Origin: Massilia sp. WG5
GTDB taxonomy: Bacteria; Pseudomonadota; Gammaproteobacteria; Burkholderiales; Burkholderiaceae_D
Reading direction: 5' to 3'
Length of the DNA stretch: 64,000 bases
NCBI RefSeq assembly: GCF_001412595.2
Contig: NZ_CP012640.2
Coordinates: 5,394,001 to 5,458,000 of the forward strand
Shown: piece after piece, positions 10,443 through 29,071 of the stretch
How positions within the stretch are numbered: the stretch's first letter is position 1
How the letters are laid out: each line of letters starts with the position of its first letter
The notes under the pieces: generated by a model
The model's input: the letters and a program-made list of their open reading frames with translations, nothing else
Databases searched by the model: none
What the model was told of the DNA's origin: nothing
Translations under genes and position numbers: made by a program

Positions 10443-13139
<2,697 letters not shown>

Positions 13140-13401
13140 GGCCACTCCGGCAGTCGAGGCGGGAAACGGCAGGGTCAGGGCCGGGGTCGGTCGTCGGCGC
13201 CGGGGGCGGGGGCAGCCGATGGACACATCCTACCATGCGTTCTGCATGGAAACTATTTCCCCGTGGATACTCTTCCAGGACTGTTGCGCCAGCGCCTTGA
13301 CAGTTCATTATCCACCCCGGCGGGATACGGCTTTGGTCGCATTGTGCGGCTGCGCAAAGCTGGCGAACATGAGGCCAAAGTCAATGATTGCGAGGTCATC
13401 C

Positions 13402-15780
13402 ATGGATGCCGGAACCCAGATCGCGCGCAGCGCGGACATCGGCACGAAAGTCAGCCTGTTGCTGCGCAGGCGGGGCGAGACAGCGGTCACGCAATTCAAG
13501 GAGCGGGTGACGGGGGTGCTGGACGGGGACGCCGAGCCCGGCCACGGCAAGGTCCCGGCGCTGCTGGCCACGGCGGCGAATCCCTGGAATGCCTGGAACT
13601 ACTCGGTCGATGCGGCGCAGCGCGCGATCCTGTTCTGGGACACGCTGCGCCGGCGCGGCAACGAGTTCGTCGAAAGCGCCGTGCACGGCCTGCAGCCGGC
13701 GCTGCACTTCGATTCCGAGACGGTGCTCGACGGACGCGGTTTCGAACGACCCGTCAATTACGCGCTGTTGCGGATCGAGCCGCCCGAAGGCGTGACGGTC
13801 GACGCGAAGCGGCGGCCCTATCTGATCATCGACCCGCGCGCCGGCCACGGCCCCGGCATCGGCGGCTTCAAGGACGACTCGCAGGTGGGGGTGGCGCTGC
13901 GCGCCGGGCATCCGGTGTATTTCGTGATCTTCTTCCGCGATCCCGAGCCCGGCCAGACCATGCTGGACGTGTGCGCGGCGGAACAGCGCTTCGTGCGCAA
14001 GGTGCGCGAACTGCATCCGGACAGCCCGAAGCCCGCCATCATCGGCAACTGCCAGGGCGGCTGGGCCGCCATGATGCTCAGCTCCTCCTCGCCGGAAGAC
14101 ACCGGCCCGATCGTGATCAACGGCGCGCCCATGTCCTACTGGGGCGGTGCCTGGAGCGAAGGGGAGGGCGACAACCCGATGCGCTACAGCGGCGGCCTGC
14201 TCGGCGGCACCTGGCTGTCGTCGATGACGGCGGACCTCGGCAACGGCAAGTTCGACGGCGCCTGGCTGGTGCACAACTTCGAGCGCCTGAACCCCGCCAA
14301 TTCGCTGTGGGGCAAGTATTACAACCTCTACGCCAACATCGATACGGAGCCGGCGCGCTTCCTCGAGTTCGAGCGCTGGTGGGGCGGCTTCTACCTGATG
14401 AACCGCGAAGAGATCGAATGGATCACGCAGAATCTCTTCGTCGGCAACAAGCTGTGGAGCGGCGACGTCAAGTCGGCCAGCGGCCAGGCCTTCGACCTGC
14501 GCGACATCCGCTCGCCGATCATCCTGTTCGCCTCGATGGGCGACAACATCACCCCGCCGCAGCAGGCCTTCAACTGGGTGGCCGACCTGTACGGCAGCAC
14601 CGAGGAGATCAAGGCGCGCGGCCAGGTGATCGTCGGCCTGGTGCACCAGGATATCGGCCACCTCGGCATCTTCGTCTCGGGCAAGGTGGCGAAGAAGGAG
14701 CATGCCCAGATCGTCTCGGTGCTGCAGACCATCGAGCGCCTGCCGCCCGGGCTGTACGCGATGGATATCAACCGGAAGCCCGGCGCGGACACCCAGCCGG
14801 AATACGAAGTGGAGTTCCGCGAACGCCAGCTCGAGGACGTGGTGCAGCGGCTCAACCGCTTCGAGCGCGAGGACGAGAAGCCCTTCGAAGCGGTCGAGAC
14901 GATCTCGGCGTTCAACCAGCGCGCCTACGAACTGTTCGCCCGGCCGCTGGTGCAGGCGATGTCGAACGAATTCACGGCGGAGATGCTGCGCCGCTTCCAT
15001 CCCTTGCGGATGCAGCACTGGATGCTGTCGGACCTGAACCCGTGGCTGGCCTGGCTGCGGCCGGCCGCCGATGCCGTGCGCGCGCAGCGCCGCGGCGTCG
15101 AACCCGACCACCCGCTGCGCGGGCTGGAGCACATCGGCGCCGAGATCCTGAGCGCCACGCTCGACCTCTACCGCGGACTGCGCGACGCCGGCACCGAAGC
15201 CGCCTTCTTCGGCGTGTACGCGAACATGTACAACGTCTACCTGGCCGGCCGCCAGCAACCCGAACTGCCGGCGCCGCCCGAGCCGCGCGACCTGCCTTTC
15301 GTGAAGGAGGCGCTGGCGTCGATTGCCGAAGGCGGCTACCCGGAAGCGGTGGCCCGCATCGGCTACCTGCTGATGCGCAAGGACGAACCCTTGCCGCTGG
15401 CCCGCCTGCAGACCACGGACGAGCTGGCGCACGACTACGCGGCGCTGCTGCCCCAGGTCGCGCCGGACCAGTTCCGCCGCATCCGCGGCGAACAGGAGAT
15501 CATCGCGCGCTACGAGCCGGAACAGGCGATCGCCACGCTGGCGCAGTTGCTGGCCGATCCCGGCGACCGCGTGAAACTGCTGACCCTCCTCGACAAGCTG
15601 ATGGCGGACCAGCGGGTGCAGGCGGCGCAGCCGACCGGGCAGCAGCTGGACATGCTGGGCCGCATTCGCGGCGTGCTGGCGCCGCGGCAGCCCAGCGAGC
15701 GCCGTCACACGCCCGCGGCCACGCGTCCCAGCGGCGAGCGCCGCCGCCTTGCGGCAGGGGCGCAGGCCGTGACCAGGTAA
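13402..15780 (+). CDS. DUF3141 protein, PhaC-like alpha/beta hydrolase
   Basis: 792 residues, first gene of an eleven-gene operon. The ATG at 13402 has GAGG seven bases upstream; earlier in-frame ATGs exist at 13369 and 13384. The fold resembles polyhydroxyalkanoate synthase: a GNCQGG lipase-like box with Cys217 as nucleophile, Asp381 in ASMGDNITPP, and His420 in DIGHLGIF complete a Cys-Asp-His triad. The C-terminal 350 residues are helical and specific to the DUF3141 family. Such proteins co-occur with pta, ackA and fabI in Betaproteobacteria. An acyl-transfer reaction on a hydroxyacyl-CoA is likely; the true product is unknown. Confidence 0.85.
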   Translation: MDAGTQIARSADIGTKVSLLLRRRGETAVTQFKERVTGVLDGDAEPGHGKVPALLATAANPWNAWNYSVDAAQRAILFWDTLRRRGNEFVESAVHGLQPALHFDSETVLDGRGFERPVNYALLRIEPPEGVTVDAKRRPYLIIDPRAGHGPGIGGFKDDSQVGVALRAGHPVYFVIFFRDPEPGQTMLDVCAAEQRFVRKVRELHPDSPKPAIIGNCQGGWAAMMLSSSSPEDTGPIVINGAPMSYWGGAWSEGEGDNPMRYSGGLLGGTWLSSMTADLGNGKFDGAWLVHNFERLNPANSLWGKYYNLYANIDTEPARFLEFERWWGGFYLMNREEIEWITQNLFVGNKLWSGDVKSASGQAFDLRDIRSPIILFASMGDNITPPQQAFNWVADLYGSTEEIKARGQVIVGLVHQDIGHLGIFVSGKVAKKEHAQIVSVLQTIERLPPGLYAMDINRKPGADTQPEYEVEFRERQLEDVVQRLNRFEREDEKPFEAVETISAFNQRAYELFARPLVQAMSNEFTAEMLRRFHPLRMQHWMLSDLNPWLAWLRPAADAVRAQRRGVEPDHPLRGLEHIGAEILSATLDLYRGLRDAGTEAAFFGVYANMYNVYLAGRQQPELPAPPEPRDLPFVKEALASIAEGGYPEAVARIGYLLMRKDEPLPLARLQTTDELAHDYAALLPQVAPDQFRRIRGEQEIIARYEPEQAIATLAQLLADPGDRVKLLTLLDKLMADQRVQAAQPTGQQLDMLGRIRGVLAPRQPSERRHTPAATRPSGERRRLAAGAQAVTR

Positions 15781-15799: not shown

Positions 15800-16735
15800 A
15801 TGGAAAACAAGCACGAGAAGTACCAGCGCCTGATCGATTACTGCCGCGCGCTGCCGCCGCTGCCGACCGCCGTCGTGCATCCTTGCGACCAGAGTTCGCT
15901 GGCGGGCGCGGCCGAAGCGGCGCAATTGGGCCTGATCGCGCCGATCCTGTGCGGCCCGGCCGAGCGCATCCGCGCGGTGGCGCAGCAGTACGGTATCCCG
16001 ATCGGCGATTACCCGATCGTCGACGCGCCCTACAGCGAGGCCGCGGCCGAGGCGGCGGTCAGGCTGGTCCGCGAAGGCAAGGCCGAAGCCCTGATGAAGG
16101 GCAGCCTGCATACCGACGAACTGATGGGCGCCGTGGTCAGGCGCGATGCCGGCCTGCGCACCGGGCGCCGCGTCAGCCATTGCTTCGTGATGGCGGTGCC
16201 GGACCATGAGGATCCGCTGATCATCACCGACGCCGCGGTGAACATCGCCCCGACGCTCGAGGAAAAGCGCGACATCCTGCAGAACGCGATCGACCTCGCG
16301 CATGCCATGCTGTTCAAGGAGGTGCGGGTCGCGATCCTGTCGGCGATGGAGAACGTCAATCCCAAGGTGCCGTCGACGATCGAAGCGGCGGCCCTGTGCA
16401 AGATGGTCGACCGCAAGCAGGTGACCGGCGCGCTGGTCGACGGCCCGCTGGCCCTGGACAACGCGATCGACCCGGAAGCCGCCCGGATCAAGGGCATCGA
16501 ATCGCCGGTGGCCGGGCGCGCCAACGTGCTGCTGGTGCCGGACCTGGAAGCGGGGAACATGCTGGCCAAGAGCCTGTCCTTCCTGGCCGGGGCCGACGCG
16601 GCCGGCATCGTGCTGGGCGCGCGCGTGCCGATCATCCTGACCAGCCGCGCCGATTCGGTCATGACCCGGCAGGCCTCCTGTGCGGTGGCGGTGCTGGTGG
16701 CCAAGGCGCGGCGCGAGCAGCAGCCGATCGGGTGA
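15800..16735 (+). CDS. pta: Phosphate acetyl/butyryltransferase
   Basis: 311 residues, start 19 bases after the DUF3141 stop, with GGGAGAGC upstream. It is the short, single-domain PTA_PTB type: ALMKGSLHTDELM, VAILSAMENVNPKVPSTIEA and GALVDGPLALDNAI are family signatures. It interconverts acetyl-CoA (or a short acyl-CoA) and acyl phosphate in the cytoplasm. Many homologues in similar operons carry an N-terminal MaoC enoyl-CoA hydratase domain; this one lacks it. With the next gene it forms a route to ATP by substrate-level phosphorylation. Confidence 0.92.
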   Translation: MENKHEKYQRLIDYCRALPPLPTAVVHPCDQSSLAGAAEAAQLGLIAPILCGPAERIRAVAQQYGIPIGDYPIVDAPYSEAAAEAAVRLVREGKAEALMKGSLHTDELMGAVVRRDAGLRTGRRVSHCFVMAVPDHEDPLIITDAAVNIAPTLEEKRDILQNAIDLAHAMLFKEVRVAILSAMENVNPKVPSTIEAAALCKMVDRKQVTGALVDGPLALDNAIDPEAARIKGIESPVAGRANVLLVPDLEAGNMLAKSLSFLAGADAAGIVLGARVPIILTSRADSVMTRQASCAVAVLVAKARREQQPIG

Positions 16736-16739
16736 TGCC

Positions 16740-17945
16740 ATGGCCGACCTGATCCTGGTGCTGAACGCCGGCTCCTCGAGCCTGAAGTTCCGCGCCTATG
16801 ATGCAAAGATGAACGGCGGCGGCAGCGCGCCCCAGCCGCTCCTGCGCGGCCAGATCGAGGGCCTGTATACCGAGCCGCACTTCTCGGTGTCCAACGCGGC
16901 CGGCGACCGCCGCGACCAACACAGCTGGACGCCGGGCACCCAGCTGGGACATGAGGGCGCGATCGGCTACATCGGCGACTTCCTGCGCAGCCACCGCGAA
17001 GGCCACCGCCTGGTCGCGGTCGGCCACAGGGTGGTGCATGGCGGGCTGCGCTTCACCCGGCCGACCCCGATCACCCCCGAGGTGGTCGACGAGCTGGCGG
17101 CCCTGGTGCCGCTGGCGCCGCTGCACCAGCCGCACAACCTGGCGCCGATCCGCGTGCTGGCGCGGCAGCGGCCGGACGTGCCGCAGGTGGCCTGCTTCGA
17201 CACCGCCTTCCATCACACCCAGCCGGAAGAGGCGGCCGCCTTCGCGCTGCCGCTCGAAATCACCGCGCGCGGCGTGCGCCGCTATGGTTTCCATGGCCTG
17301 TCCTACGAGTACGTCGCCAGCCGCCTGCCGGACCTGGCGCCGGCGGCGGCGCAGGGCCGCACCGTCGTCGCCCACCTGGGCAATGGCGCCAGCATGTGCG
17401 CGCTGCGCGCCGGGCGCAGCATCGCCAGCACGATGGGCTTCACCGCCGTCGACGGGCTGGTGATGGGCACCCGCTGCGGCAGCGTCGACGCCGGCGTGAT
17501 CCTGTACCTCATGGACGAACTGAAGATGGACACCCGCGCGGTCGAGGACCTGATCTACAAGCGCTCCGGCCTGCTGGGCGTGTCCGGCATCTCGAGCGAC
17601 ATGCGGACCCTGCTGGCTAGCGACGATCCGCGCGCCCGCTTCGCCGTCGAGCTGTTCACCTACCGCATCGGGCGCGAGCTCGGTTCGCTGGCGGCGGCCC
17701 TGGGCGGTCTCGATGCGTTGGTGTTCACCGGCGGCATCGGCGAGCGCGCCGCATCGATCCGCGATCGGGTCTGCCGCCAGGCGGCCTGGCTCGGCGTCGG
17801 GCTCGACCCGGCCGCCAACGAGGCGAACGGGCCGCGCATCGGCAGCGACGGCAGCCGGGTCCAGGCCTGGGTGATCCCGACCGATGAAGAGCAGATGATC
17901 GCGCGGCATACCTTCGCCACCGTGCTGCAGGGAGGCCGATCGTGA
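16740..17945 (+). CDS. ackA: Acetate/propionate kinase
   Basis: 401 residues. Start ATG at 16740, 4 bases after the pta stop. Acetate kinase signatures are all present: LNAGSSSLKF near the N-terminus, GHRVVHGG, FDTAFH, RRYGFHGLSYEYV, HLGNGASM, GTRCGSVDAG and FTGGIGER. It transfers phosphate from acetyl phosphate (or propionyl phosphate) to ADP. Its stop overlaps the GTG start of the following CoA-transferase subunit by 4 bases, so the two are translationally coupled. Confidence 0.95.
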   Translation: MADLILVLNAGSSSLKFRAYDAKMNGGGSAPQPLLRGQIEGLYTEPHFSVSNAAGDRRDQHSWTPGTQLGHEGAIGYIGDFLRSHREGHRLVAVGHRVVHGGLRFTRPTPITPEVVDELAALVPLAPLHQPHNLAPIRVLARQRPDVPQVACFDTAFHHTQPEEAAAFALPLEITARGVRRYGFHGLSYEYVASRLPDLAPAAAQGRTVVAHLGNGASMCALRAGRSIASTMGFTAVDGLVMGTRCGSVDAGVILYLMDELKMDTRAVEDLIYKRSGLLGVSGISSDMRTLLASDDPRARFAVELFTYRIGRELGSLAAALGGLDALVFTGGIGERAASIRDRVCRQAAWLGVGLDPAANEANGPRIGSDGSRVQAWVIPTDEEQMIARHTFATVLQGGRS

Positions 17946-18586
17946 AAACCGTGTCCCTGGACAAGGCGGTCGAACTGATCCCCGATGGCGCCAGCGTCAT
18001 GGTCGGCGGCTTCATGGGCGTGGGCACGCCCGAGCGCGTGATGGACGAGCTGGTGCGCCAGGGCCGGCGCGGACTGACCGTGATCGCCAACGACACCGCG
18101 CGCCCCGGCCGCGGGATCGGCAAGCTGATCTCGGGCGGGGTGGCCAGCCGCGCCATCGTCAGCCACATCGGCCTGAACCCGGAAACCCAGAAGAAGATGA
18201 TCGCCGGCGAACTCGAGGTCGAACTGGTGCCGCAGGGGACGCTGATCGAGCGCATCCGCGCCGGCGGCTTCGGCCTGGGGGGCGTGCTGACCCCGACCGG
18301 GGTCGGCACCCTGGTCGAGGAGGGCAAGCGCAAGCTCGACATCGACGGCGCCCAGTACCTGGTCGAGCCGGCCTTGAGAGCCGATTTCGCCCTGGTCGAA
18401 TCCTTCCTGGCCGACTACTACGGCAACCTGACCTATGCGCTCACGGCGCGCAACTTCAATCCGGTGATCGCGATGGCGGCGCGCACCCTGATCGTCGACG
18501 CCTGCCACATCGTGCCGGTCGGGATGATCCCGCCCGACCAGGTGGTGACGCCGGCGGTGCTGGTCGACTACGTGGTCGCCCACTAG
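17942..18586 (+). CDS. atoD: Acetate CoA-transferase subunit alpha (AtoD-like)
   Basis: 214 residues from a GTG start that overlaps the ackA stop (GTGA). It matches the alpha subunit of family I 3-oxoacid/acetate CoA-transferases: MVGGFMGVGTPERVMDEL, LTVIANDTA, SHIGLNPETQ, LVPQGTLIERIRAGG, GLGGVLTPTGVGT and NFNPVIAMAA. It binds CoA and works only with the beta subunit encoded next. Together they move CoA between acetyl-CoA or acetoacetyl-CoA and a free acid. Its place between ackA and fabI is unusual. Confidence 0.9.
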   Translation: MKTVSLDKAVELIPDGASVMVGGFMGVGTPERVMDELVRQGRRGLTVIANDTARPGRGIGKLISGGVASRAIVSHIGLNPETQKKMIAGELEVELVPQGTLIERIRAGGFGLGGVLTPTGVGTLVEEGKRKLDIDGAQYLVEPALRADFALVESFLADYYGNLTYALTARNFNPVIAMAARTLIVDACHIVPVGMIPPDQVVTPAVLVDYVVAH

Positions 18587-18595
18587 GAAACCATC

Positions 18596-19264
18596 ATGGA
18601 TCCGCAAACCCTGATCGCCAGGCGCATCGCGCAGGAACTCAAGCCGGGCATGCTGGTGAACCTCGGCGTCGGCATTCCGACCCTGGTCGCCAACTACGTC
18701 CCGGCCGGCATGCGCATCTATTTCCAGTCCGAGAACGGCCTGATCGGCACCGGCCCGATCCCCGAGGAGGGGATGACCGAAGCCCTGCTGACCGACGCCG
18801 CCGGCCAGCCGGTCAGCGCCCTGCCGGGCGCCTGCACCTTCGATACCGCGATGTCCTTCGGCCTGATCCGCGGCGGCCACCTGGACGTGACCGTGCTCGG
18901 CGGCCTGCAGGTCGACCAGCGCGGCCTGCTGGCCAACTGGACGATCCCCGGCAAGATGGTGCCCGGCATGGGCGGCGCGATGGACCTGGTCACCGGCGCC
19001 AGGCGCGTGATCGTGGCCATGCAGCATACCGCCAAGGGCGCCTCGAAGATCGTCAAGGAATGCACGCTGCCGCTGACCTCGATCCGGCCGGTCGACCTGG
19101 TGGTGACCGAAATGGCCGTGATCGCGTTCGAGAACGGCGCGGCGCTGTTGCGCGAGACCGCCCCCGGGGTATCGGTGCAGCAGGTACTGGACGCCACCGG
19201 CGCCGCGCTCGTGATTCCCGGCGAAGTCCCGCAAATGCCAATTGACGAAGGAGCGAACACATGA
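18596..19264 (+). CDS. atoA: Acetate CoA-transferase subunit beta (AtoA-like)
   Basis: 222 residues, 9 bases after the alpha subunit. It carries the catalytic glutamate at position 46 in the QSENGLIG motif; this residue forms the gamma-glutamyl-CoA thioester. Other family marks are LGVGIPTLVANYV, GGHLDVTVLGGLQVD and the late TRAxxCTLPLTSIRPVDLVVTEMAV-type region. It partners the preceding alpha subunit. Its stop overlaps the fabI ATG by 4 bases, so both CoA-transferase genes are truly inside the operon and not a separate unit. Confidence 0.9.
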   Translation: MDPQTLIARRIAQELKPGMLVNLGVGIPTLVANYVPAGMRIYFQSENGLIGTGPIPEEGMTEALLTDAAGQPVSALPGACTFDTAMSFGLIRGGHLDVTVLGGLQVDQRGLLANWTIPGKMVPGMGGAMDLVTGARRVIVAMQHTAKGASKIVKECTLPLTSIRPVDLVVTEMAVIAFENGAALLRETAPGVSVQQVLDATGAALVIPGEVPQMPIDEGANT

Positions 19265-20043
19265 CTATCGACATCCCGCGTCCGATCCTGAAGGGCGCGA
19301 AGGCACTGGTGACCGGTATCGCCAACGAGCATTCGATCGCCTGGGGCTGCGCCAAGGCCTTCCGCGAGATGGGCGCCGAGCTGGCCATCACCTACCTCAA
19401 CGACAAGGCGCGCGCCTATGTCGAGCCGCTCGCCAGGGAGCTGGACGCGCCCGTGTTCATGCCGCTCGACGTGGGCAGGCCGGAACAGGTCGAGGCCCTG
19501 TTCGAGCGGATCGGCAAGGAGTGGGGCGCACTCGACATCCTGGTGCACTCGATGGCCTTCGCCCCCAAGCAAGACCTGCAGGGCGGGTTGCTGAACTGCT
19601 CAGCGGAGGGCTTCGCGCAGGCGATGGACATCTCCTGCCACTCCTTCATCCGGCTCGCGCGCGCCGGCGCGCCGCTGATGAAAAATGGCGGCACCATGTT
19701 CACGATGTCCTACTACGGCGCCAACAAGGTCGTCCCCAACTACAACGTGATGGGGCCGGTGAAGGCGGCGCTGGAGGCGAGCGCGCGCTACCTCGCCTAC
19801 GAGCTCGGTCCACAGCACATCCGCGTGCATGCGATCTCGCCGGGGCCGCTGCTGACCCGGGCCGGCGCCGGCCTGAAGGACTTCGACCGCATGCTGGCCG
19901 AGGCGGCCCAGCGCGCGCCGCTCGGCGAGCTGGTGGACATCATGGACGTCGGCTATACCTGCGCCTTCCTGGCCACGCCGCTGGCGCGCCGGCTGTCCGG
20001 CGAGACGCTGTATATCGACGGCGGCGTCAACATCATGGCATAG
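19261..20043 (+). CDS. fabI: Enoyl-ACP reductase (FabI type)
   Basis: 260 residues of a short-chain dehydrogenase fold. The FabI active-site pattern Y-x6-K is at Tyr161 and Lys168 (NYNVMGPVKAAL), with Tyr151 in the preceding SYYGA. The cofactor loop is GIANEHSIAWG. It reduces the trans-2 double bond of acyl-ACP in the last step of fatty-acid elongation, or an enoyl-CoA in this context. Operons with DUF3141, pta and ackA often end with such a reductase, probably a second copy besides the housekeeping FabI. Coupled by a 4-base overlap to atoA. Confidence 0.92.
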   Translation: MTIDIPRPILKGAKALVTGIANEHSIAWGCAKAFREMGAELAITYLNDKARAYVEPLARELDAPVFMPLDVGRPEQVEALFERIGKEWGALDILVHSMAFAPKQDLQGGLLNCSAEGFAQAMDISCHSFIRLARAGAPLMKNGGTMFTMSYYGANKVVPNYNVMGPVKAALEASARYLAYELGPQHIRVHAISPGPLLTRAGAGLKDFDRMLAEAAQRAPLGELVDIMDVGYTCAFLATPLARRLSGETLYIDGGVNIMA

Positions 20044-20056
20044 GAGGAGCATCACC

Positions 20057-20329
20057 ATGGCCAGTCTGTTGATCGGCAATGTGGACAGCAGCGCCTCGGA
20101 CCAGGACATCCGCGACCTGCTGGCGCGCTACGGCTTTCCGCCCTGCGACTCGATCGAGCACATGCCCGGCGACGGCAGCCGGCCGGCGGTGCTGCTGCGC
20201 TACGGCGGCGCGCCGGCGGAGGCGCTGCGCAGCCTGCAGCCGCGCCTGCAGGACCTGTTCTGGAAGAACCGCAAGATCCAGGTGTCGGTGGTGGACCAGC
20301 GCTACGACGAGGGAGCGGCCCAGGGATGA
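20057..20329 (+). CDS. Small RRM-like (RNA-recognition-motif fold) protein
   Basis: 90 residues with a GGAGG-type site upstream. The predicted order is beta-alpha-beta-beta-alpha-beta. Strand 1 SLLIGNVD matches the RNP2 pattern of RRM proteins, helix 1 SDQDIRDLLARYG is typical, and strand 3 is RPAVLLRYG where RNP1 should be. RNP1 lacks the usual aromatic pair, so RNA binding may be weak or altered. It overlaps the next gene by 4 bases. RNA binding is inferred from fold resemblance only; a protein-protein role is possible. Confidence 0.65.
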   Translation: MASLLIGNVDSSASDQDIRDLLARYGFPPCDSIEHMPGDGSRPAVLLRYGGAPAEALRSLQPRLQDLFWKNRKIQVSVVDQRYDEGAAQG

Positions 20330-21387
20330 ACGTTGCGATGAAGCTGGCGCAGCTGCTGAACCGGTGGCGGCCGGGCAGGGATACGAACGGCGGGGATCCG
20401 GCCGGCGAACCGGACCGGGTCCGCGTCGCCGAGGCGGTCGAACGCATCATCGCGCTCAGCCCGCACCTGCGCATGGCGCGCCGCTACGAAGCCCGGCTGG
20501 CGCCGGCGGTCACGACCACGCTGCGCTACGTGGGCGGCATCGTCGCCGCGATCCCGCCGGCGCGCGAGGCGAGCGCCGCCGCCTGGTCGCTCGACCCCTA
20601 CATCCACGCCTTCTTCGGCAGCGCCGACGAGGTCGCGCCGGTGCTGTCGCGCTCACGCGACCTGCGTACCTTCTTCGAGCAGAACCCGGGGCAGCGCGAA
20701 GCCTGGGCCGTGCTCGGGATGGCGATGCTCGAAAAGCGCGTGCTCGGCACGACGCTGGAAGGGGAGACCATGCGCCGCGAGGAGATCCAGGAAACGATCG
20801 GCTTCAGCGACCACCAGGTGCGCATGTGCGGGCGCACCGAACCGGAGCTGCGCGAAGAGATCGTGCGCCGCCTGGTCGTGCAGCTCGGGCTGCAGGGCAT
20901 CGCGCGCTATGCAGCGCAGCAGACCCGGCGCGGCCTGCTCGAGAGCGAACGGGCGCTGCTGCATACGCGCCTGCAGCTGCTGGAGCGCAAGGGCATCGGG
21001 ATGGGCGCGATAATCGGCGGCGACGCGCAGGCGGCCGGCACCGAGGAACTGGCGCGGCTGCAGGAAGCGATCAACGAGAACGAGAGCGCGATCGAGCGGC
21101 TGGGGCTGCGTTCGGAGGCGCTGGACCGCGAGCTGGCCGAGGTGTGCGCGGTGCTGGCCGATCCGGCCGCCCACCTGTTCGTGCATACCCGCCGCTGCGT
21201 GCTGAACAGGATGAACGTGGTGCAGCCGCCGGACAGCCGGGCGGCCGGCGACGAGGTGGTGTTCGAGGTGGCCCGGGTCCCGACCGTGCCGCCGGAGGCG
21301 CGCGCCTTCACGCTGGTGCGATTCGCGCGCGCCGACCTGTGCTCGGCCACCGCCCTGCTGGACGATGCGGCGCGCTTGTTGGGTTAG
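20326..21387 (+). CDS. Unknown 353-residue protein of the energy operon
   Basis: I do not recognise this family. The protein is mostly helical, without signal peptide or clear membrane segment. Residues about 35-190 have regularly spaced helices (RVAEAVERIIALSPHLRMA, then SLDPYIHAFFGSADEV). Residues about 200-285 look like a coiled-coil hairpin (LLESERALLHTRLQLLERK, then LARLQEAINENESAIERL). The end is a beta-rich segment (EVVFEVARVPTVPPEARAFTLVRFARADL). It lies directly upstream of the orphan atpG with a 9-base gap and overlaps the RRM-like gene, so a function tied to either RNA or the F1 stalk is possible but not shown. Confidence 0.7.
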   Translation: MNVAMKLAQLLNRWRPGRDTNGGDPAGEPDRVRVAEAVERIIALSPHLRMARRYEARLAPAVTTTLRYVGGIVAAIPPAREASAAAWSLDPYIHAFFGSADEVAPVLSRSRDLRTFFEQNPGQREAWAVLGMAMLEKRVLGTTLEGETMRREEIQETIGFSDHQVRMCGRTEPELREEIVRRLVVQLGLQGIARYAAQQTRRGLLESERALLHTRLQLLERKGIGMGAIIGGDAQAAGTEELARLQEAINENESAIERLGLRSEALDRELAEVCAVLADPAAHLFVHTRRCVLNRMNVVQPPDSRAAGDEVVFEVARVPTVPPEARAFTLVRFARADLCSATALLDDAARLLG

Positions 21388-21396
21388 GAGGACATC

Positions 21397-22263
21397 ATGG
21401 CCGGCTTCAAGGAAATTCGTACCAAGATCAAAAGCGTCGAGAGCACGCGCAAGATCACCAAGGCGATGGAAATGGTGGCGGTATCGAAGATGCGCAAGGC
21501 GCAGGACAGGATGCGCGCCTCGCGCCCCTACGCCGAGCGGGTGCGCAATATCGCGGGCCACCTGGCGGAAGCCAACCCGGACTACACCCACCCCTTCCTG
21601 GTCCGGCATGAAGCCCTGCGGCGCGCGGGCCTGATCGTGGTCACTACCGACAAGGGCCTGTGCGGCGGCATGAACGTCAACGTGCTGCGCCTGGTGACCA
21701 ACCGCATGCGCCAGTACGCGGACCAGCGCGTCGCGGTGGACGTGGTGGCGGTGGGCGGCAAGGGCTTCGGCTTCCTCAACCGCTTCGGCGCGCACGTCGT
21801 CTCGCAGGTGGTGCAGCTGGGCGACGTGCCGCACCTGGAGCGCCTGATCGGGCCGGTCAAGGTACTGACCGACGCCTACCAGCAGGGCGAGCTCGACGAG
21901 ATCAGGATGTGCTATACCCGCTTCGTCAACACCATGGCCCAGGAGCCGGCGGAGGAAGTCCTGATCCCGATGGGGAGCGAAGCGCTGCGCCCGGACAGTG
22001 CGCTGCGCCTGGACTACATCACCGAACCGGACGCCCAGACCGTCATCGACGAGCTGGTCGGGCACTATGTCGAGGCGCTGATCTACCGCGCCGTGGCCGA
22101 GAACATGGCCTCCGAACAGGCGGCGCGGCGGATGGCCATGAAGGCCGCCACCGACAATGCCGGCAATGTGATCGGCGAGCTGACGCTCAAGTACAACAAG
22201 TCGCGCCAGGCCTCGATCACGCAGGAGATCACCGAGATCGTCTCCGGCGCGGCCGCCGTTTGA
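21397..22263 (+). CDS. atpG: F1 ATP synthase gamma subunit, orphan copy
   Basis: 288 residues, full length, with a strong AGGAGGACATC ribosome site. The N-terminal rotor helix ([32 protein letters not shown]) and the C-terminal helix ([19 protein letters not shown], ending EIVSGAAAV) are intact, as is the conserved [10 protein letters not shown]. It should form the central shaft of F1. No alpha, beta, delta, a, b or c subunit gene lies in this window, so the main atp operon must be elsewhere and this is probably a second copy. Product and integrity are clear; its role as an alternative rotor is inference. Confidence 0.95.
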
Positions 22264-22279
22264 ACATCGCGAGGATGAA

Positions 22280-22708
22280 ATGGCAGACGTGAAGACATTG
22301 AAGGTCGAGGTGGTCTCGCCCGAGGAAGAGATCTTTTCGGGCCTGGCCGAGTTCGTGGCGCTGCCGGGCGAGGTCGGCGAGCTCGGGATCTTTCCGCAGC
22401 ATACGCCGCTGCTGACGCGGATCCGGCCCGGCGCGGTGCGCATCAAGCTGGCCGGGCGCAACGAGGAAGAACTGGTGTTCGTCGCCGGCGGCATCGTCGA
22501 CGTGCACCCGGATGCGGTGACCGTGCTGGCCGATACCGCGATCCGTGGCCGCGACCTGGACGAGGCCAGGGCCATCGACGCCAGGAAGCGTGCCCAGGAA
22601 GCGCTGGCCAACAGCACCGCCCAGTTCGACCATGCCAAGGCCCAGGCCGAGCTGGCGGTGGCGATCGCGCAGTTGCAGGCCATCACCCGCCTGCGCGAAC
22701 GGAAGTAG
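22280..22708 (+). CDS. atpC: F1 ATP synthase epsilon subunit, orphan copy
   Basis: 142 residues, 16 bases after atpG, exactly where beta (atpD) would sit in a normal atp operon. The N-terminal beta-sandwich ([39 protein letters not shown]) and the C-terminal two-helix domain ([35 protein letters not shown]) are both complete. The C-terminal helices of bacterial epsilon can insert into F1 and block ATP hydrolysis, so this copy keeps the inhibitory part. With atpG it would supply a complete gamma-epsilon stalk. Confidence 0.94.
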
Positions 22709-22745: not shown

Positions 22746-23108
22746 ATGATCACCGTCGTCGGCATCTTCGACAAGTTCGGGCCGGCGCAGAGCGCCAAGA
22801 ATGAATTGCTGGTCGCCGGTTTCTCGTGGCGGCAGGTGCAGCTCAATCCCGACCACGAGCTTGCGCCCAGGACGCATGCGCCGAACCCGCAGCCGGGCGA
22901 CCAGTCGGTCCAGACCACCATGGGCAACCTGGTGCGCGGCCTGTTCGGGGTCGGCGTCCGCAGCGCGCACGGCGACCTGTTCGGCGCGCCGGTGCGGCAT
23001 GGCGACTATGCGCTGATGGTCGACAGCGACAGCGAGCAGCAGCGCGTCCAGGCGGAGGACATCATGCGGCGCCATCAGCCGGTCGAGCTGAACCGCCACG
23101 AGACCTGA
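22746..23108 (+). CDS. Small stress-type protein of unknown function
   Basis: 120 residues with a good GGGGAGG site 7 bases before the ATG. The N-terminal part (ITVVGIFDKFGPAQSAKNELLVAGF) resembles the first beta-alpha unit of general-stress proteins that sense or bind something through a ferredoxin-like fold. A Gly-rich stretch (MGNLVRGLFGVGVRS) follows and then a second strand and helix (DYALMVDSDSEQQRVQAEDIMRR). It is the last gene of the operon, 37 bases after atpC. The resemblance is weak and no enzymatic motif is visible. Confidence 0.55.
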   Translation: MITVVGIFDKFGPAQSAKNELLVAGFSWRQVQLNPDHELAPRTHAPNPQPGDQSVQTTMGNLVRGLFGVGVRSAHGDLFGAPVRHGDYALMVDSDSEQQRVQAEDIMRRHQPVELNRHET

Positions 23109-23234: not shown

Positions 23235-24422
23235 ATGAATCGTCCGTTTCTGCCGCTCGCGCTTGGCGCCTCGATGACCTGCCTGAGCGCCGGACTGGCC
23301 GGCTGCTCGCGCGAAGTCCAGGCGCCGCCCGCCCAGCCCCTGCAGGTCACGGCGGTCAGCATGACGCCGCACGACACGCCGGTGTCCTTCGAATTCGTGG
23401 CCCAGACCCAGAGTTCGCGCGAGGTCGAGATCCGGGCGCGGGTCGACGGCTTCCTCGACAAGCGGCTCTACACCGAAGGCACGATGGTGCGCGCCGGACA
23501 GCCGCTGTTCCAGATGGACCCGAAACCCTTCGAGGCGGCGCTGCAGTCGGCACAGGGCCAGCTGGAACAGCAGCGCGCCCGGCTCGAGGTGGCGGAAGCG
23601 AACCTGCGCCGGGTGCGCCCGCTGGCGGCCCGGAATGCCGTCAGCAAGAAAGAGCTGGACGACGCGATCGGCATGGAACGCTCGTCGCGCGCGGCGGTGC
23701 TGGCCGCCGAAGGGCAGGTGCGCACCGCGCGCCTGAATCTCGGCTATACGACGATCGCCTCGCCGCTGCTGGGGCTGACGAGCTTCGCCAAGAAGCAGGA
23801 AGGCAGTTACCTGACGGTCGGCGAGCAGGGCCTGCTGACCACCGTGTCCCAGGTCGATCCGATCTGGGTCAACTTCAGTATCTCGGAAAACGAGCTGCTC
23901 AGCTACCGCGACCAGATCGCCAAGGGCCGCCTGAAGTTTCCGCAGAATCAGAATTTCGAGGTCGAAGTCGTCCCGGCCGACGGCACGGTATTTCCGAAGC
24001 GCGGCCACATCAACTTCGCCGCACCGTCCTTCGACGCCGGCACCGGCACCTTCCTGGTGCGCACCGAACTGCCGAACCCGGAAGGCAAGCTGCGCCCGGG
24101 CCAGTTCGTGCGCGCCCGGGTATTCGGCGCGACCCGGCCGGCGGCCATGCAACTGCCGCAGCGCGCGGTGCAGCAGGGCTCGAAGGGACATTACGTCTGG
24201 GTGATCGGGAATGACGGCAAGGCCAGGCAGCGCGTCGTCGAGGTGGGCGACTGGATCGGCGACGACTGGTTCATCAGCGACGGCCTGAAGCCGGGCGAGC
24301 GCGTGGTGGTCGACGGCGCCGGCCGGGTCACGCCCACCGCGCCGCTGCGGGTCGCCGCGCTGACGCCGCAGCCGGCGCTGGCGCAGGCCGGCACGGCCGC
24401 GCGGGCGGAGGCGCGGCCATGA
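23235..24422 (+). CDS. RND efflux periplasmic adaptor lipoprotein
   Basis: 395 residues. The N-terminus is a lipoprotein signal (LSAGLAGCSREV, lipobox before the Cys), then the membrane-fusion protein arrangement: barrel-sandwich start (EIRARVDGFLDKRLYTEGTMVRAGQPLFQMD, written here in parts), an alpha hairpin (about 100-150), a lipoyl half and a beta-barrel/membrane-proximal end (GLKPGERVVVDGAGRV). It connects the inner-membrane pump to the outer-membrane channel. It overlaps the pump gene by 4 bases. The 126 bases upstream hold a TTGGTGTCAA dyad-like sequence but no regulator gene is adjacent. Confidence 0.92.
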   Translation: MNRPFLPLALGASMTCLSAGLAGCSREVQAPPAQPLQVTAVSMTPHDTPVSFEFVAQTQSSREVEIRARVDGFLDKRLYTEGTMVRAGQPLFQMDPKPFEAALQSAQGQLEQQRARLEVAEANLRRVRPLAARNAVSKKELDDAIGMERSSRAAVLAAEGQVRTARLNLGYTTIASPLLGLTSFAKKQEGSYLTVGEQGLLTTVSQVDPIWVNFSISENELLSYRDQIAKGRLKFPQNQNFEVEVVPADGTVFPKRGHINFAAPSFDAGTGTFLVRTELPNPEGKLRPGQFVRARVFGATRPAAMQLPQRAVQQGSKGHYVWVIGNDGKARQRVVEVGDWIGDDWFISDGLKPGERVVVDGAGRVTPTAPLRVAALTPQPALAQAGTAARAEARP

Positions 24423-27400
24423 ATATTTCGCGCTTCTGCATCGACCATCCGATCTTTGCCTCGGTGATCTCGATCGTCATCACGCTGGCCGGCGCGGTGG
24501 CGATGTTCAAGTCGCCGGTCGCGCAGTACCCCGACATTACACCGCCGCAGATCACGGTCAGCGCCACCTATCCGGGCGCCGACGCCAACGTGGTGGCCAA
24601 CAACGTGGCCGCGCCGATCGAGCAGCAGGTCAACGGTGCCGACAACATGATCTACATGAACTCGTCGAGTTCGTCGACCGGCAACATGACCCTGAACGTG
24701 TTCTTCGAGATCGGCACCGATCCGCAGCTGGCGCAGGTCGACGTGCAGAACCGCGTCAACCTGGCGCTGCCGCAACTGCCGTCGGCGGTCACGGCCCAGG
24801 GCGTGCAGGTGCAGAAGAAGTCCTCGGCCTTCATGATGGTGATCGCGGTGTATTCGCCGAGCGAGCGCTACGACCCGGTGTATGTGGCCAACTACACCAA
24901 TATCTACATCCTGGACGCGCTCAAGCGCATCCCCGGCGCCAACCAGACCAGCATCTTCGGCACGCCCGACTACGCCATGCGGATCTGGCTCAAGCCCGAC
25001 CGCATGGCGCAGCTGGGCGTGACCGCCAGCGAGGTCCAGCAGGCGGTGGCGGCGCAGAACCAGCAGTACGCGGTCGGGCGCCTCGGGCAGTCGCCGACCG
25101 GCAAGGCGGTCGAGCAGTCCTTCCCGGTCACCACCGCCGGCCGCATGACCGAGGCGTCCGAGTTCGACAACATCATCATCCGCGCGGCCAGCGGCGGCGC
25201 CGCCATCGTGCGCCTGAAGGATATCGGCCGCGCCGAGCTGGGGCAGAAGGACTACTCGATCCGCGGCACCTACCAGGGCCGGCCGGCGACCATGCTGGCG
25301 GTGTACCAGCAGCCGGGCGCGAATGCGCTGGACGTGTCCAACCAGGTCAAGGCGACGCTGGCGCAGATGCAGAAGGAGTTCCCGGAAGGGATCGAATACA
25401 AGATCGTGATGGACACCACCAACTTCACGCGGGCCTCGATTTCGGACGTGGTGAAGACCTTCTTCGAGGCGGTGGTGCTGGTGGTGCTGGTGGTCTACCT
25501 GTTCCTGCAGAGCCTGCGCGCGACCCTGATCCCGGTGCTGGCGGTGCCGGTGTCGATCGTCGGTACTTTCATCGGCATGCAGGCGCTCGGCTTCTCGATC
25601 AATATGCTGACCCTGTTCGGCATGGTGCTGGCGATCGGCATCGTGGTCGACGACGCCATCGTGGTGATCGAAAACGTCGAACGCAACATGACCGTGCACC
25701 ACCTGCCGCCGAAGGAAGCGGCCAAGCGTGCGATGGACGAGGTGGCCGGTCCCGTGGTCGCGATCGTGCTGGTGCTGTGTGCGGTGTTTGTGCCGGTCGC
25801 CTTTCTCGGCGGGATCACGGGGCAGCTGTACAAGCAGTTCGCGATCACCATCGCGATCTCGGTGGTGATTTCCGGGATCGTCGCGCTCACGCTGTCGCCG
25901 GCGCTGGCGGCGATCCTGCTGAAACCCGTGCATGGCAAGAAGAACCGCTTCTTCCGCTGGTTCGAACGGAGCTTCGAACGGATGACGGCCAGCTACGGGC
26001 GCGCCGTGGCGCTCACGATCAAGCGCGCCGGGATCGCGCTGCTGCTGTTCGCCGGCATGATCGGGCTGTCGGTGTTCATGCTGAACCGGGTGCCGAAGGC
26101 CTTCCTGCCGCCCGAAGACCAGGGCTACCTGCTGGGCGCGGTCATCATGCCCGATGCCGCGAGCCTGGACCGCACGGGCGCGGTCGGCAAGCGCGTCACC
26201 GATTACTTCACCAGGAACCCGGCGGTCGAAGGGGTGGCCGTGATCGACGGCTACAGCCTGCTGGACAACCAGAACAAGAACAATGCGGGCACCTTCTTCG
26301 TCGGCTTCAAGGACTTCGATGAGCGCTACAGCGGCGACAACATCCGCACGCAGAACGCGCGCGCCGTGCTGCAGGACGCCGGCGCGAAGCTGGGCGGCGA
26401 TGCGCGCGGGATGGTCGTGCCGGTCAATCCGCCGTCGATCCCGGGGCTGGGCACGACCGGCGGCCTCGAAGTCTGGATCCAGAGCAAGGGCGACAAGAAC
26501 GTGCAGCAGCTCGGCGCCGCCGTCGGCGAGTACATGGCGAAGCTGAAGAATGCGCCGGAGATCGGACGCGCCACCGCCACCTTCAACGCCAGCAGCCAGC
26601 AGCTGCTGGTCGACGTCGACCGCGACAAGGCCGAGACGCTCGGGGTGCCGGTCGAGGATGTCTACGGCACGCTGCAGACCATGTTCGGCTCGCTCTACAT
26701 TTCGCAGTTCATCAAGTCGAGCCGGCTGTGGCAGGTGATCCTGCAGGCCGAACCGGAGTACCGCCTGCGGCCGGAGGACCTGGAACGGCTGTATGTGCGC
26801 AGCCGCGACAAGGCGATGGTGCCGCTGTCGGCCGTTGTCACCAGCAAGTACGTGACCGGGCCAGACCTGATGACGCGCTTTAACAACTTCCCGGCGGTGA
26901 AGGTGACGGCGACGACGGCGCCCGGCTACAGCTCCGGCCAGGCGATCGCGGCCCTGCAACGGGTCGGCGCCGAGGTCCTCCCTTCCGACTTCGGCCTGGC
27001 CTGGAGCGGCGAAGCCTTCGAGGAGCAGAAGGCCGGCGCCGCGTCGGCATCGGTGTTCGTGTTCGGCCTGGTGATGGTGTTCCTGATCCTGGCGGCGCAA
27101 TACGAGAAGTGGTCGCTGCCTTTCGGCGTGCTGCTGGCGGTGCCCTTCGCCCTGTTCGGCGCGCTGCTGGCGGTGACGATGCGCAAGCTGTCGAACGATA
27201 TCTATTTCCAGATCGGCCTGACCATGCTGGTGGCGCTGGCGGCGAAGAATGCGATCCTGATCTTCGAATTCGCGGTGCTCAACCGCGAGCAGGGCGCATC
27301 CTTCCGCGACGCGGCCCTGACCGCGGCGCGCGAGCGCCTGCGCCCGATCGTCATGACCTCGGTCGCCTTCATCCTCGGCTGCGTGCCGCTGGCGTTGGCC

Positions 27401-27646
27401 AAGGGCGCATCGGCCAACAGCCGGATCTCGATCGGCACCGGGGTGATCGGCGGGATGCTGGCGGCCACCGTCATCGCCGTGTTCTGGATTCCGATGTTCT
27501 ACTACGTGATCGAAACGCTGGCCGAGCGCATGGGACGCCGCAAGGCGAAGGCGGCGCCGCCGCCGGAAGTGGCCGGCCCGCAGCTGCCGGGCGGCGGAGC
27601 CGGCGCCGGCCACGTGCCGCATGCGCCGCGCCCGCCGGGAGAATAA
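24419..27646 (+). CDS. RND multidrug efflux pump, inner-membrane subunit (HAE-1 type)
   Basis: 1075 residues, the usual length for AcrB/MexB/MexF proteins. It has twelve predicted membrane helices, the first right at the start (HPIFASVISIVITLAGAVA). The proton-relay aspartates are seen in GIVVDDAIVVIENVERN of TM4, and the periplasmic porter and docking domains lie between TM1-2 and TM7-8. It exports hydrophobic compounds using the proton gradient. The C-terminal tail is Pro/Gly-rich. It sits between the adaptor and the outer-membrane factor, so the tripartite system is complete. Confidence 0.95.
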   Translation: MNISRFCIDHPIFASVISIVITLAGAVAMFKSPVAQYPDITPPQITVSATYPGADANVVANNVAAPIEQQVNGADNMIYMNSSSSSTGNMTLNVFFEIGTDPQLAQVDVQNRVNLALPQLPSAVTAQGVQVQKKSSAFMMVIAVYSPSERYDPVYVANYTNIYILDALKRIPGANQTSIFGTPDYAMRIWLKPDRMAQLGVTASEVQQAVAAQNQQYAVGRLGQSPTGKAVEQSFPVTTAGRMTEASEFDNIIIRAASGGAAIVRLKDIGRAELGQKDYSIRGTYQGRPATMLAVYQQPGANALDVSNQVKATLAQMQKEFPEGIEYKIVMDTTNFTRASISDVVKTFFEAVVLVVLVVYLFLQSLRATLIPVLAVPVSIVGTFIGMQALGFSINMLTLFGMVLAIGIVVDDAIVVIENVERNMTVHHLPPKEAAKRAMDEVAGPVVAIVLVLCAVFVPVAFLGGITGQLYKQFAITIAISVVISGIVALTLSPALAAILLKPVHGKKNRFFRWFERSFERMTASYGRAVALTIKRAGIALLLFAGMIGLSVFMLNRVPKAFLPPEDQGYLLGAVIMPDAASLDRTGAVGKRVTDYFTRNPAVEGVAVIDGYSLLDNQNKNNAGTFFVGFKDFDERYSGDNIRTQNARAVLQDAGAKLGGDARGMVVPVNPPSIPGLGTTGGLEVWIQSKGDKNVQQLGAAVGEYMAKLKNAPEIGRATATFNASSQQLLVDVDRDKAETLGVPVEDVYGTLQTMFGSLYISQFIKSSRLWQVILQAEPEYRLRPEDLERLYVRSRDKAMVPLSAVVTSKYVTGPDLMTRFNNFPAVKVTATTAPGYSSGQAIAALQRVGAEVLPSDFGLAWSGEAFEEQKAGAASASVFVFGLVMVFLILAAQYEKWSLPFGVLLAVPFALFGALLAVTMRKLSNDIYFQIGLTMLVALAAKNAILIFEFAVLNREQGASFRDAALTAARERLRPIVMTSVAFILGCVPLALAKGASANSRISIGTGVIGGMLAATVIAVFWIPMFYYVIETLAERMGRRKAKAAPPPEVAGPQLPGGGAGAGHVPHAPRPPGE

Positions 27647-27649
27647 AAA

Positions 27650-29071
27650 ATGTCGAATCCGCGAAGATGGCTGCTGCTCGGCGCCGGCCTACTAGCCGGC
27701 TGCGCGGTCGGCCCCGACTACAAGCGCCCCGCGGTCGATGCGCCGCAGGCCTTCCGCTTCCACGACAAGGAGGCGGGCGCGATCGCCAACACCGCCTGGT
27801 GGCGCCAGTTCCAGGATCCGGTCCTGGACCAGCTGATCGCCGAGGCGCTGCGCGAGAACAAGGACGTCAAGATCGCGGCCGCCCGCATCGACCTGTTCCT
27901 CGGCCAGTACGCCAGCACCCGTTCGCTGCTGCTGCCGCAGGTGGGCGCGAACCTGAACGGCAGCCGCGGGCGCGTGCCGGCGGGCACGGCCGGCAGCGTG
28001 ATCGCGCCGGTCCAGGACCAGTACGAAGCCTCGCTGTCGGCCAACTGGGAGCTGGACCTGTTCGGCCGGCGCCGGCGCGAGACCGAGGCCGCGCGCGCCC
28101 AGGTGCTGGCCAGCGAGGAGGGCCGCCGCGCCACCGTGCTGACCCTGGTGTCCTCGGTGGCCTCGTCCTACATCACGCTGCGCGAGCTGGAGCGCGAGCT
28201 GCAGATCGCGAAGGACACGGCCACCAGCCGGGAAAATTCCTTCAAGCTGTTCACGGACAGGTTCGAGGGCGGCACCGTGTCGGAGCTGGAACTGGCCCAG
28301 ACCCAGTCCCTGTACGAGGCCTCGCTGGTCGAGATCCCGCGCCTGGAAGCCCTGATCGGCCAGCAGGAAGACGCCTTGTCGATCCTGCTCGGCCGGAACC
28401 CGGGGCCGATCCGCGCCAGCCACCCGCTGGCGGGGCTGGCGCTGCCGCCGGTGCCGGCCGGCCTCCCGTCCGAACTGCTGGAGCGCCGGCCCGACCTGCG
28501 CCAGGCGGAGCAGCAGCTGGTCGCCGCGAATGCCCTGATCGGGGCGGCGCGCGCCCAGTACTTCCCGACGATTTCGCTGACCGGCCTGCTCGGCTACATC
28601 AGCAAGGATTTCTCCCAGCTGTTCCAGGGCTCCACCAAGGTCTGGTCCTATGGCGTGGCGGCGTCGATGCCGATCTTCACCGGCGGCGGCATCGCCGGCC
28701 AGGTCCAGCAGGCCGAGGCCCAGCAGCAGGAAGCGCTGCTGAACTACCAGAAGGCGATCCAGGTGTCGTTCCAGGAAGTGTCGGATGCGCTGGTGAGCCA
28801 TGCGAAGTCGCGCGACCAGCTGGGCTTCCTGGACCGCGAAGTGCGCACGCTGCGCAACTACCTCGAGCTGGCGCGCCTGCGCTACGACGAGGGCTACACC
28901 AGCTATATCGAGGTGCTCGACGCCGAACGCAGCCTGTTCGCGGCCGAGGTGGCCTACACCCAGACCCAGTCGCAGGTCTACACCTCGCTGGTGAACCTGT
29001 ACAAGGCGATGGGCGGCGGCTGGGTGCTCGAGGCGGAAGGCATGACGGCAGCGCCGGTCGCGGCCCGTTAG
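27650..29071 (+). CDS. Outer-membrane efflux lipoprotein (NodT/OprM type)
   Basis: 473 residues, 3 bases after the pump gene. Lipobox LLAGCAVGPDY, then the family sequence AWWRQFQDPVLDQLI. Two tandem repeats of helices and strands (about 60-260 and 270-460) build the TolC-like channel; LLERRPDLRQAEQQL and RYDEGYTSYIEVLDAERSL are signatures of the second repeat. It is the exit duct for the RND pump. The last residues (AAPVAAR) are poorly conserved. Confidence 0.94.
   Translation: MSNPRRWLLLGAGLLAGCAVGPDYKRPAVDAPQAFRFHDKEAGAIANTAWWRQFQDPVLDQLIAEALRENKDVKIAAARIDLFLGQYASTRSLLLPQVGANLNGSRGRVPAGTAGSVIAPVQDQYEASLSANWELDLFGRRRRETEAARAQVLASEEGRRATVLTLVSSVASSYITLRELERELQIAKDTATSRENSFKLFTDRFEGGTVSELELAQTQSLYEASLVEIPRLEALIGQQEDALSILLGRNPGPIRASHPLAGLALPPVPAGLPSELLERRPDLRQAEQQLVAANALIGAARAQYFPTISLTGLLGYISKDFSQLFQGSTKVWSYGVAASMPIFTGGGIAGQVQQAEAQQQEALLNYQKAIQVSFQEVSDALVSHAKSRDQLGFLDREVRTLRNYLELARLRYDEGYTSYIEVLDAERSLFAAEVAYTQTQSQVYTSLVNLYKAMGGGWVLEAEGMTAAPVAAR

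Follow-up and report, generated by a model that had tools for sequence, protein, structure and literature searches.

What role could a second gamma and a second epsilon subunit of F1-ATPase play in a bacterium when their genes stand apart from every other gene of the ATP synthase? The question is raised by a 64,000-nucleotide stretch of the genome of Massilia sp. WG5 (contig NZ_CP012640.2, positions 5,394,001 to 5,458,000; the window in the following), in which the two genes, here called gamma2 and epsilon2, occupy the following positions.

21397..22263, + strand: gamma2, full-length paralogue of F1 gamma, 288 amino acids, carrying M243R/V244M (open reading frame supported by Pfam, TIGRFAM and NCBIfam profiles)
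22280..22708, + strand: epsilon2, full-length paralogue of F1 epsilon, 142 amino acids, C-terminal helical domain and DLDEARA motif retained

The evidence obtained from the window and its relatives shows that the pair is genuine, a gamma-epsilon cassette that lies outside the atp operon, recurs and is under selection. Regarding its function, we consider, with a probability of roughly one half, that the pair may represent an alternative rotor module, incorporated into the housekeeping F1 while acetyl phosphate serves as the source of ATP.

The pair and its housekeeping counterpart

Both reading frames begin with ATG and are separated by a gap of 16 bases, with AGGAGG placed 5 bases ahead of gamma2 and GAGG 5 bases ahead of epsilon2; coordinates, starts and profiles thus agree with an earlier note on this DNA, which had described full-length genes, 16 bases apart, with good ribosome sites. 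Gamma2 scores 330 bits against PF00231 (residues 5-288), 330 bits against TIGR01146 (cut-off 194) and 427 bits against NF004144 (cut-off 372), and epsilon2 scores 94.5 bits against PF02823, 42.3 bits against the C-terminal PF00401 (cut-off 24.6) and 134 bits against TIGR01216 (cut-off 67). Membership of gamma2 in the F1 gamma family is evident from the full-length match over curated cut-offs and from the presence of the R268/Q269 tether (residue numbering is that of E. coli gamma without Met1), that of epsilon2 in the F1 epsilon family from the PF02823 sandwich joined to the PF00401 helical domain. Assembly of gamma2 with alpha3beta3 is a prediction. The N-ATPase profiles are far from reached, with 85.3 bits for gamma2 (TIGR03323, cut-off 282.35) and 25.5 bits for epsilon2 (TIGR03166, cut-off 100.1). 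When the nine proteins of the genome's own atp operon were used in tblastn against the 64-kb window, gamma and epsilon alone were matched, which bears out the earlier observation that alpha, beta, delta and Fo genes are absent from it; a complete second F1Fo operon, having alpha, beta, delta, a, b and c beside the pair, is not present.

The main atp operon was found in the same genome (6.2 Mb, 3 contigs, 100% complete), arranged atpB-E-F-H-A-G-D-C at 3.45 Mb of contig C1, which is the contig of the pair, at a distance of 2 Mb from it. Its beta gene lies between gamma and epsilon, the arrangement that the earlier note had taken to be normal. The main gamma, which clusters with Massilia gammas in the gamma tree described below, as befits a Massilia-like member of the Oxalobacteraceae, is 66% identical to gamma2 and the main epsilon 68% identical to epsilon2, and the window pair is hence a paralogue and not the only atpG/atpC of the genome. 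PF00006 detects five ATPases in the genome: alpha, beta, FliI (NCBIfam), a second FliI/SctN-like protein and Rho, the last two named from their translations. Because the housekeeping alpha and beta are the sole F-type proteins among them, the pair has no private alpha or beta of its own.

Recurrence, origin and selection

Relatives were gathered by protein searches of genomes from the genus (62 genomes), the family (145 for gamma, 392 for H353, the protein encoded directly 5' of gamma2) and the order (399); G and L numbers label genomes and loci, G000 being the genome of the window. Two gammas occur in 8 of the 62 genus genomes; in a ninth, G193, the one gamma found is 91% identical to that of the window and lies in the same gene order, so that the pair has nine carriers in the genus. 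The 145 family genomes have two full gammas in G000 and G097, and two part-matches on different contigs in G071. Two gamma matches were obtained in 20 of the 399 order genomes, and the surroundings were inspected in 13 of the 20, the own genome included (the others are G292, G356, G390, G393, G419, G534 and G560). Nine of the 13 hold orphan pairs (G000, G234, G278, G319, G448, G505, G323, G451, G476) and four hold second operons, whole or in part (G230, G274, G321, G537). In a scan of genome contigs, beta adjoins gamma in 78 of the best 80 loci; in the remaining two (L057, L097), the contig breaks off after alpha and gamma. A plasmid search returned 61 records, all of them below 60% identity.

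Together with the window, 17 fetched loci of 9.8-20 kb each make up the 18 orphan loci considered here. Within the stretches read (9.8-64 kb), none of the 18 contains an alpha, beta, delta, a or c homologue. Gamma and epsilon are both present in all 18 and adjacent in 17; in G476, they lie 3.5 kb apart, with sensor and response-regulator genes (named by eye) between them on the opposite strand. Neither a stop nor a truncation affects gamma or epsilon in any of the 18 loci. The extra b subunit encoded in L131 (G097; 9553-10020, PF00430 70 bits) directly 3' of the orphan epsilon implies that the module is not always a rotor-only set; the term, used in the earlier note, holds for the window and fails as a general description. 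A tandem repeat of TTTGCC and then the contig end follow 3' of that b gene.

The search for the same pair in related genomes led to two clades. The gamma tree comprises 106 sequences, namely the 18 orphans, 20 fetched main gammas (E. coli included) and 68 other housekeeping gammas, the last taken from the best 80 loci after a filter on start motif and length had removed 12; main gammas of G193, where the orphan alone turned up, and of G448, where the main was not fetched, are not part of it. The orphans form one clade of 10 and another of 8 sequences, each supported at 100/99. The first includes 10 loci, 9 of them in the Massilia-like genus, and the second includes 8 loci in three other families. 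In the epsilon tree (38 paired loci), the first clade is again one group (99/97), and the eight epsilons of the second are found on the far side of the branch that holds all mains (80/95). Since both trees split the orphans in two, two origins of orphan pairs are favoured, not proven: a tree constrained to unite the 18 gammas is worse by 37 log units, and the approximately unbiased (AU) test does not reject it (p-AU 0.079). That single origin might be read as pointing to a full second ATP-synthase operon, from which alpha, beta and Fo were lost and the shaft was kept by chance, and the order does include genomes with a complete second operon (G274, G230, G537). However, no remnant of a further subunit is seen in the 18 orphan loci save b in G097, and, given the position of beta in a normal operon, the loss would have had to be exact. 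In G168, moreover, a gene for a resistance-nodulation-division (RND) fusion protein begins within ~110 bases 3' of H353, the gap in which the window has gamma, epsilon and a gene for a 120-residue protein, and the comparison shows the cassette to be gained or lost as a whole. We therefore regard an operon remnant as very improbable.

In the genus g28, a lone orphan epsilon 53-55% identical to that of the window was noted (L235 1489-1905, L236 1414-1908, L237 1492-1908; genomes G028, G061, G117). Two epsilons occur in 14 of 15 g28 genomes, and one gamma in each of the 7 searched (E<=1e-20). In G766 (L233 1492-1917) and G681 (L234), a second epsilon lies less than 2 kb from the other.

The ratio of non-synonymous to synonymous divergence (dN/dS) of orphan gammas is 0.02-0.31 in 9 of 10 comparisons, dS not being computable for G323-G451. 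Individual values are 0.16 for G000-G193 (gamma dN 0.067, dS 0.411; epsilon dN 0.065, dS 0.324), 0.08 for G149-G161, 0.22 for G145-G195 and 0.31 for G000-G154. In the same genome pairs, dN of the orphan gamma exceeds that of the main gamma in 7 of 8 cases and equals it in the remaining one; dN/dS is likewise greater for the orphan in 6 of 7 computable pairs, G145-G168 being lower. Purifying selection acts on the pair, less tightly than on the housekeeping copy. The faster evolution would suit a functionless old duplicate or a transferred fragment that is carried along, as would the patchy distribution, with 9 of 62 genomes in the genus and, outside it, G097 alone among the 145 of the family. 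Against this stand a dN/dS well below 1, the freedom of all 18 loci from stops and truncations, the agreement of gamma and epsilon trees in placing the orphans in the same two groups, and the situation in L138 (G161), where CoA-transferase A and B are broken (8667-8903) and the adjoining gamma-epsilon is whole. A cassette without function appears improbable in consequence, if slightly less so than an operon remnant.

The acetate/CoA island

In the window, the pair closes a run of genes for enzymes of acetate and coenzyme A (CoA) metabolism, as the earlier note had recognized; a gene that it had overlooked, encoding the 120-residue protein, follows 3' of epsilon2.

13399..15780, + strand: DUF3141 protein, conserved part (the listed reading frame begins at 12814)
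15800..16735, + strand: phosphate acetyltransferase (pta; profile match)
16737..17945, + strand: acetate/propionate kinase (ackA; profile match)
17942..18586, + strand: CoA-transferase subunit A (profile match)
18596..19264, + strand: CoA-transferase subunit B (profile match)
19261..20043, + strand: FabI-type enoyl-acyl carrier protein reductase (profile match)
20057..20329, + strand: small protein of 90 amino acids, no Pfam match, RRM-like by eye alone
20326..21387, + strand: H353, 353 amino acids, no Pfam match, directly 5' of gamma2
22746..23108, + strand: protein of 120 amino acids, no Pfam match, fold-level resemblance to PII and other ferredoxin-like proteins

With intergenic spacings of -4 to +16 bases from pta to epsilon2, the arrangement fits one transcript for these genes. 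The pair stands directly 3' of DUF3141-pta-ackA-CoA-transferase-fabI-small protein-H353 in the window, G193, G154, G149, G161, G196 and G097; in G193, the contig ends within ackA and DUF3141 is on another contig. It lies outside the island in G195, G145 and G168, and in the latter two an island without the pair is located on another contig. Co-occurrence, examined within the genus through DUF3141, is pronounced: DUF3141 is present in 8 of 62 genomes, and the pair accompanies it in 8 of these 8 compared to 1 of the 54 others (G195), for a Fisher p of 2.7e-9 that ignores kinship. DUF3141 itself has an in-frame stop in G154 and G161, in both of which gamma-epsilon is intact.

A related setting recurs in the second clade, where phosphoketolase, ackA, gamma and epsilon follow in a row in L204 (G323) and L205 (G451) of genus g122; the L204 acetate kinase reaches 245.7 bits against TIGR00016 (cut-off 293.4) and is far over the cut-off of Pfam. 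Phosphoketolase and Pta both produce acetyl phosphate, the substrate of acetate kinase, and the settings of the two clades thus share one reaction.

As regards the proteins without Pfam match, the 120-residue gene is found 3' of epsilon in 6 of 10 first-clade loci, pairs outside the island among them. One could imagine that the pair no longer serves ATP synthesis and belongs to a different complex, for instance one in which this protein acts as a sensor of the energy state; we hold this to be improbable, to nearly the same degree as absence of function. When the profile of the protein was compared with PDB sequences, all 10 matches were designed TIM barrels and were set aside as chance or composition. 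Among the 6 further first-clade loci with the island beside the pair, 5 have the 90-residue protein, which was not found in G154. H353, whose predicted structure has a mean predicted local distance difference test (pLDDT) score of 46, occurs in 7 of 392 family genomes, all 7 with a second epsilon. Its family (order-wide loci L141-L169) is present in 47 of 399 order genomes; among 18 of these loci inspected, 2 lie in a pta-ackA-fabI island and none has gamma or epsilon in the stretch read. Farther 3' of the cassette and on the same strand, the window holds a set of membrane-fusion, RND pump and outer-membrane genes (23235-29071, named by eye). The fusion gene likewise follows the cassette, or else the island, in G193, G145 and G168, and lies ~6 kb behind the cassette in G154.

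A proposed rotor exchange and the evidence weighed

The reading of the pair as an alternative rotor for the housekeeping F1 draws on the assembly behaviour of the Acetobacterium woodii enzyme and on the intact R268/Q269 of the orphan gamma. As reported in PMC8904574, A. woodii gamma alone aggregated, and atpG and atpC cloned together gave a soluble gamma-epsilon which takes up alpha-beta dimers to form alpha3beta3-gamma-epsilon; a gamma-epsilon gene pair would on that account lend itself naturally to altering the rotor of newly made F1. R268/Q269 is described as the tether to the beta catch loop, mutation of which cuts ATPase activity (PMC9447477). By analogy, gamma2 and epsilon2 would form a gamma-epsilon sub-complex on which housekeeping alpha-beta dimers assemble, and, provided that the pair is expressed with the acetate/CoA island, a share of the newly built F1 would carry the alternative shaft whenever the island is expressed. 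The resulting enzyme might exhibit weaker ATP hydrolysis or altered coupling, and weaker hydrolysis would spare the ATP made by acetate kinase at low proton-motive force. As to which way the enzyme would change, the acetate setting speaks for a reduction of wasteful hydrolysis, a proposed and still debated role of epsilon (PMC5990651).

Comparison with 88 housekeeping gammas shows where the orphans depart from the common shaft. Among the 85 columns invariant in this reference, two are altered in 10 of 10 first-clade orphans, M243R and V244M, changes that occur in 0 of 88 housekeeping gammas and adjoin R242 in the C-terminal shaft helix. M243R may be likened to M23K, reportedly an uncoupling mutation of gamma, a likeness taken as a lead only. 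Second-clade gammas keep M243 (8 of 8) and mostly V244 (6 of 8), and all eight are changed at T16, Q35, H64 and L86. M23, R242, R268, Q269, T273 and E275 are retained in all 18 orphans. Of 150 highly conserved columns, 23 are altered in the window gamma; in leave-one-out comparisons, the housekeeping gammas differ in a median of 1 and at most 11, save E. coli with 25. For the epsilons of L197, L201 and L204 in the second clade, PF00401 gave no match at E<=0.001, and PF02823 was matched in all three. A wider proposal, which we advance tentatively and consider possible at best, is that at least two bacterial lineages keep a conditional, co-translated rotor cassette, in some cases tied to acetyl-phosphate energy metabolism, which is incorporated into the housekeeping F1 and changes its gearing or its brake; the working change would be M243R in the first clade and the decay of the C-terminal epsilon signature in the second.

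Several observations weigh against rotor exchange. No ackA was found in the stretch read for 6 of 8 second-clade loci (for L209, 1.7 kb upstream only), and the acetate link is consequently not general. The A. woodii alpha3beta3-gamma was also isolated without epsilon, which is thus not strictly required for assembly (PMC8904574). Epsilon2 looks ordinary in sequence, so that stronger inhibition is not read from it. Signals for conditional expression are likewise missing: a scan for sigma-70 promoters and terminators gave nothing useful, with no sigma-70-like promoter recognized before the island. For the FNR-like pattern TTGAT-N4-ATCAA (<=2 mismatches), the window has 16 matches where 5.8 are expected, and none of 100 shuffles attained as many as 16. 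Each of these matches carries 2 mismatches, and the interval separating DUF3141 from the gene upstream of it contains none of them. One-mismatch matches were obtained in other loci, such as L204 at 9159 just ahead of ackA, and L205 has an exact site at 5083, distant from the pair. Oxygen limitation or scarcity of energy as the trigger is, therefore, a suggestion made by the neighbouring enzymes. The interpretation given in the earlier note stands in respect of the paralogue, its recurrence, its co-occurrence with DUF3141 and the intactness of the genes; the regulation that it envisaged is drawn from the neighbours.

A further objection concerns W203, Y207 and R221, which are invariant in 88 of 88 housekeeping gammas and lost in the gammas of the window and G193. 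They belong to a region that we take to be the foot of gamma docking on the c-ring, and, if so, their loss would favour a non-productive complex. The changes in the window lineage leave room for a titrant that does not dock: gamma2-epsilon2 would bind alpha/beta dimers without being able to settle on Fo, giving soluble or idle F1 and fewer working ATP synthases, in keeping with the lack of any Fo or delta gene along with the pair in 17 of 18 loci. Yet W203 and R221 are kept in the other 8 first-clade gammas and Y207 in 7 of 10, all three are kept in 8 of 8 of the second clade, E208 is retained in 18 of 18, and the extra b subunit of G097 has no evident use in a soluble F1. We judge such a poison to be unlikely, though it carries more weight than any other rival of rotor exchange.

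Placed among known systems, the pair resembles housekeeping F1 gamma and epsilon (TIGR01146, TIGR01216; E. coli 5t4o, 3oaa) in full length, beta contacts and C-terminal epsilon domain, and differs from them in its acetate/CoA setting without neighbouring alpha, beta, delta or Fo genes, in M243R/V244M and, for the window lineage, in the loss of W203, Y207 and R221. Arabidopsis chloroplast ATPC2 is likewise a second gamma, which alters the regulation of ATP synthase when it replaces the main one; as portrayed in PMC5522872, it is a eukaryotic gamma alone that lacks redox control and has neither epsilon partner nor operon. The F1-like Type 2 and Type 3 ATPases of Mycoplasma are partial F1-type sets outside the main operon, but according to PMC3369863 they come with alpha- and beta-like subunits as well as membrane proteins of their own, whereas here the shaft alone is doubled. 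Extra atp genes are known from the same order in the Burkholderia N-ATPase, an alternate F1Fo, which is a whole operon (PMC5376962) and whose gamma profile the window gamma falls far short of. Titles and abstract openings of the open-licence literature searched contain no description of an orphan bacterial gamma-epsilon pair; PMC4463540, considered as a precedent for the words 'second copy' and 'orphan' in its text, concerns other genes where it uses them.

Lastly, the recurrence of the cassette in relatives suggests an ability of some cells to equip their ATP synthase with another shaft. The bacterial ATP synthase is usually seen as one fixed machine per cell, regulated through the position of epsilon or through bound ADP; were the proposed reading true, some bacteria would regulate it by exchanging the rotor itself, and the making of ATP by acetate kinase would be tied in a concrete way to the control of the ATPase. 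The natural gamma variants (M243R/V244M and W203/Y207/R221) offer material for the long-standing question of how residues of the shaft relate to coupling and hydrolysis.
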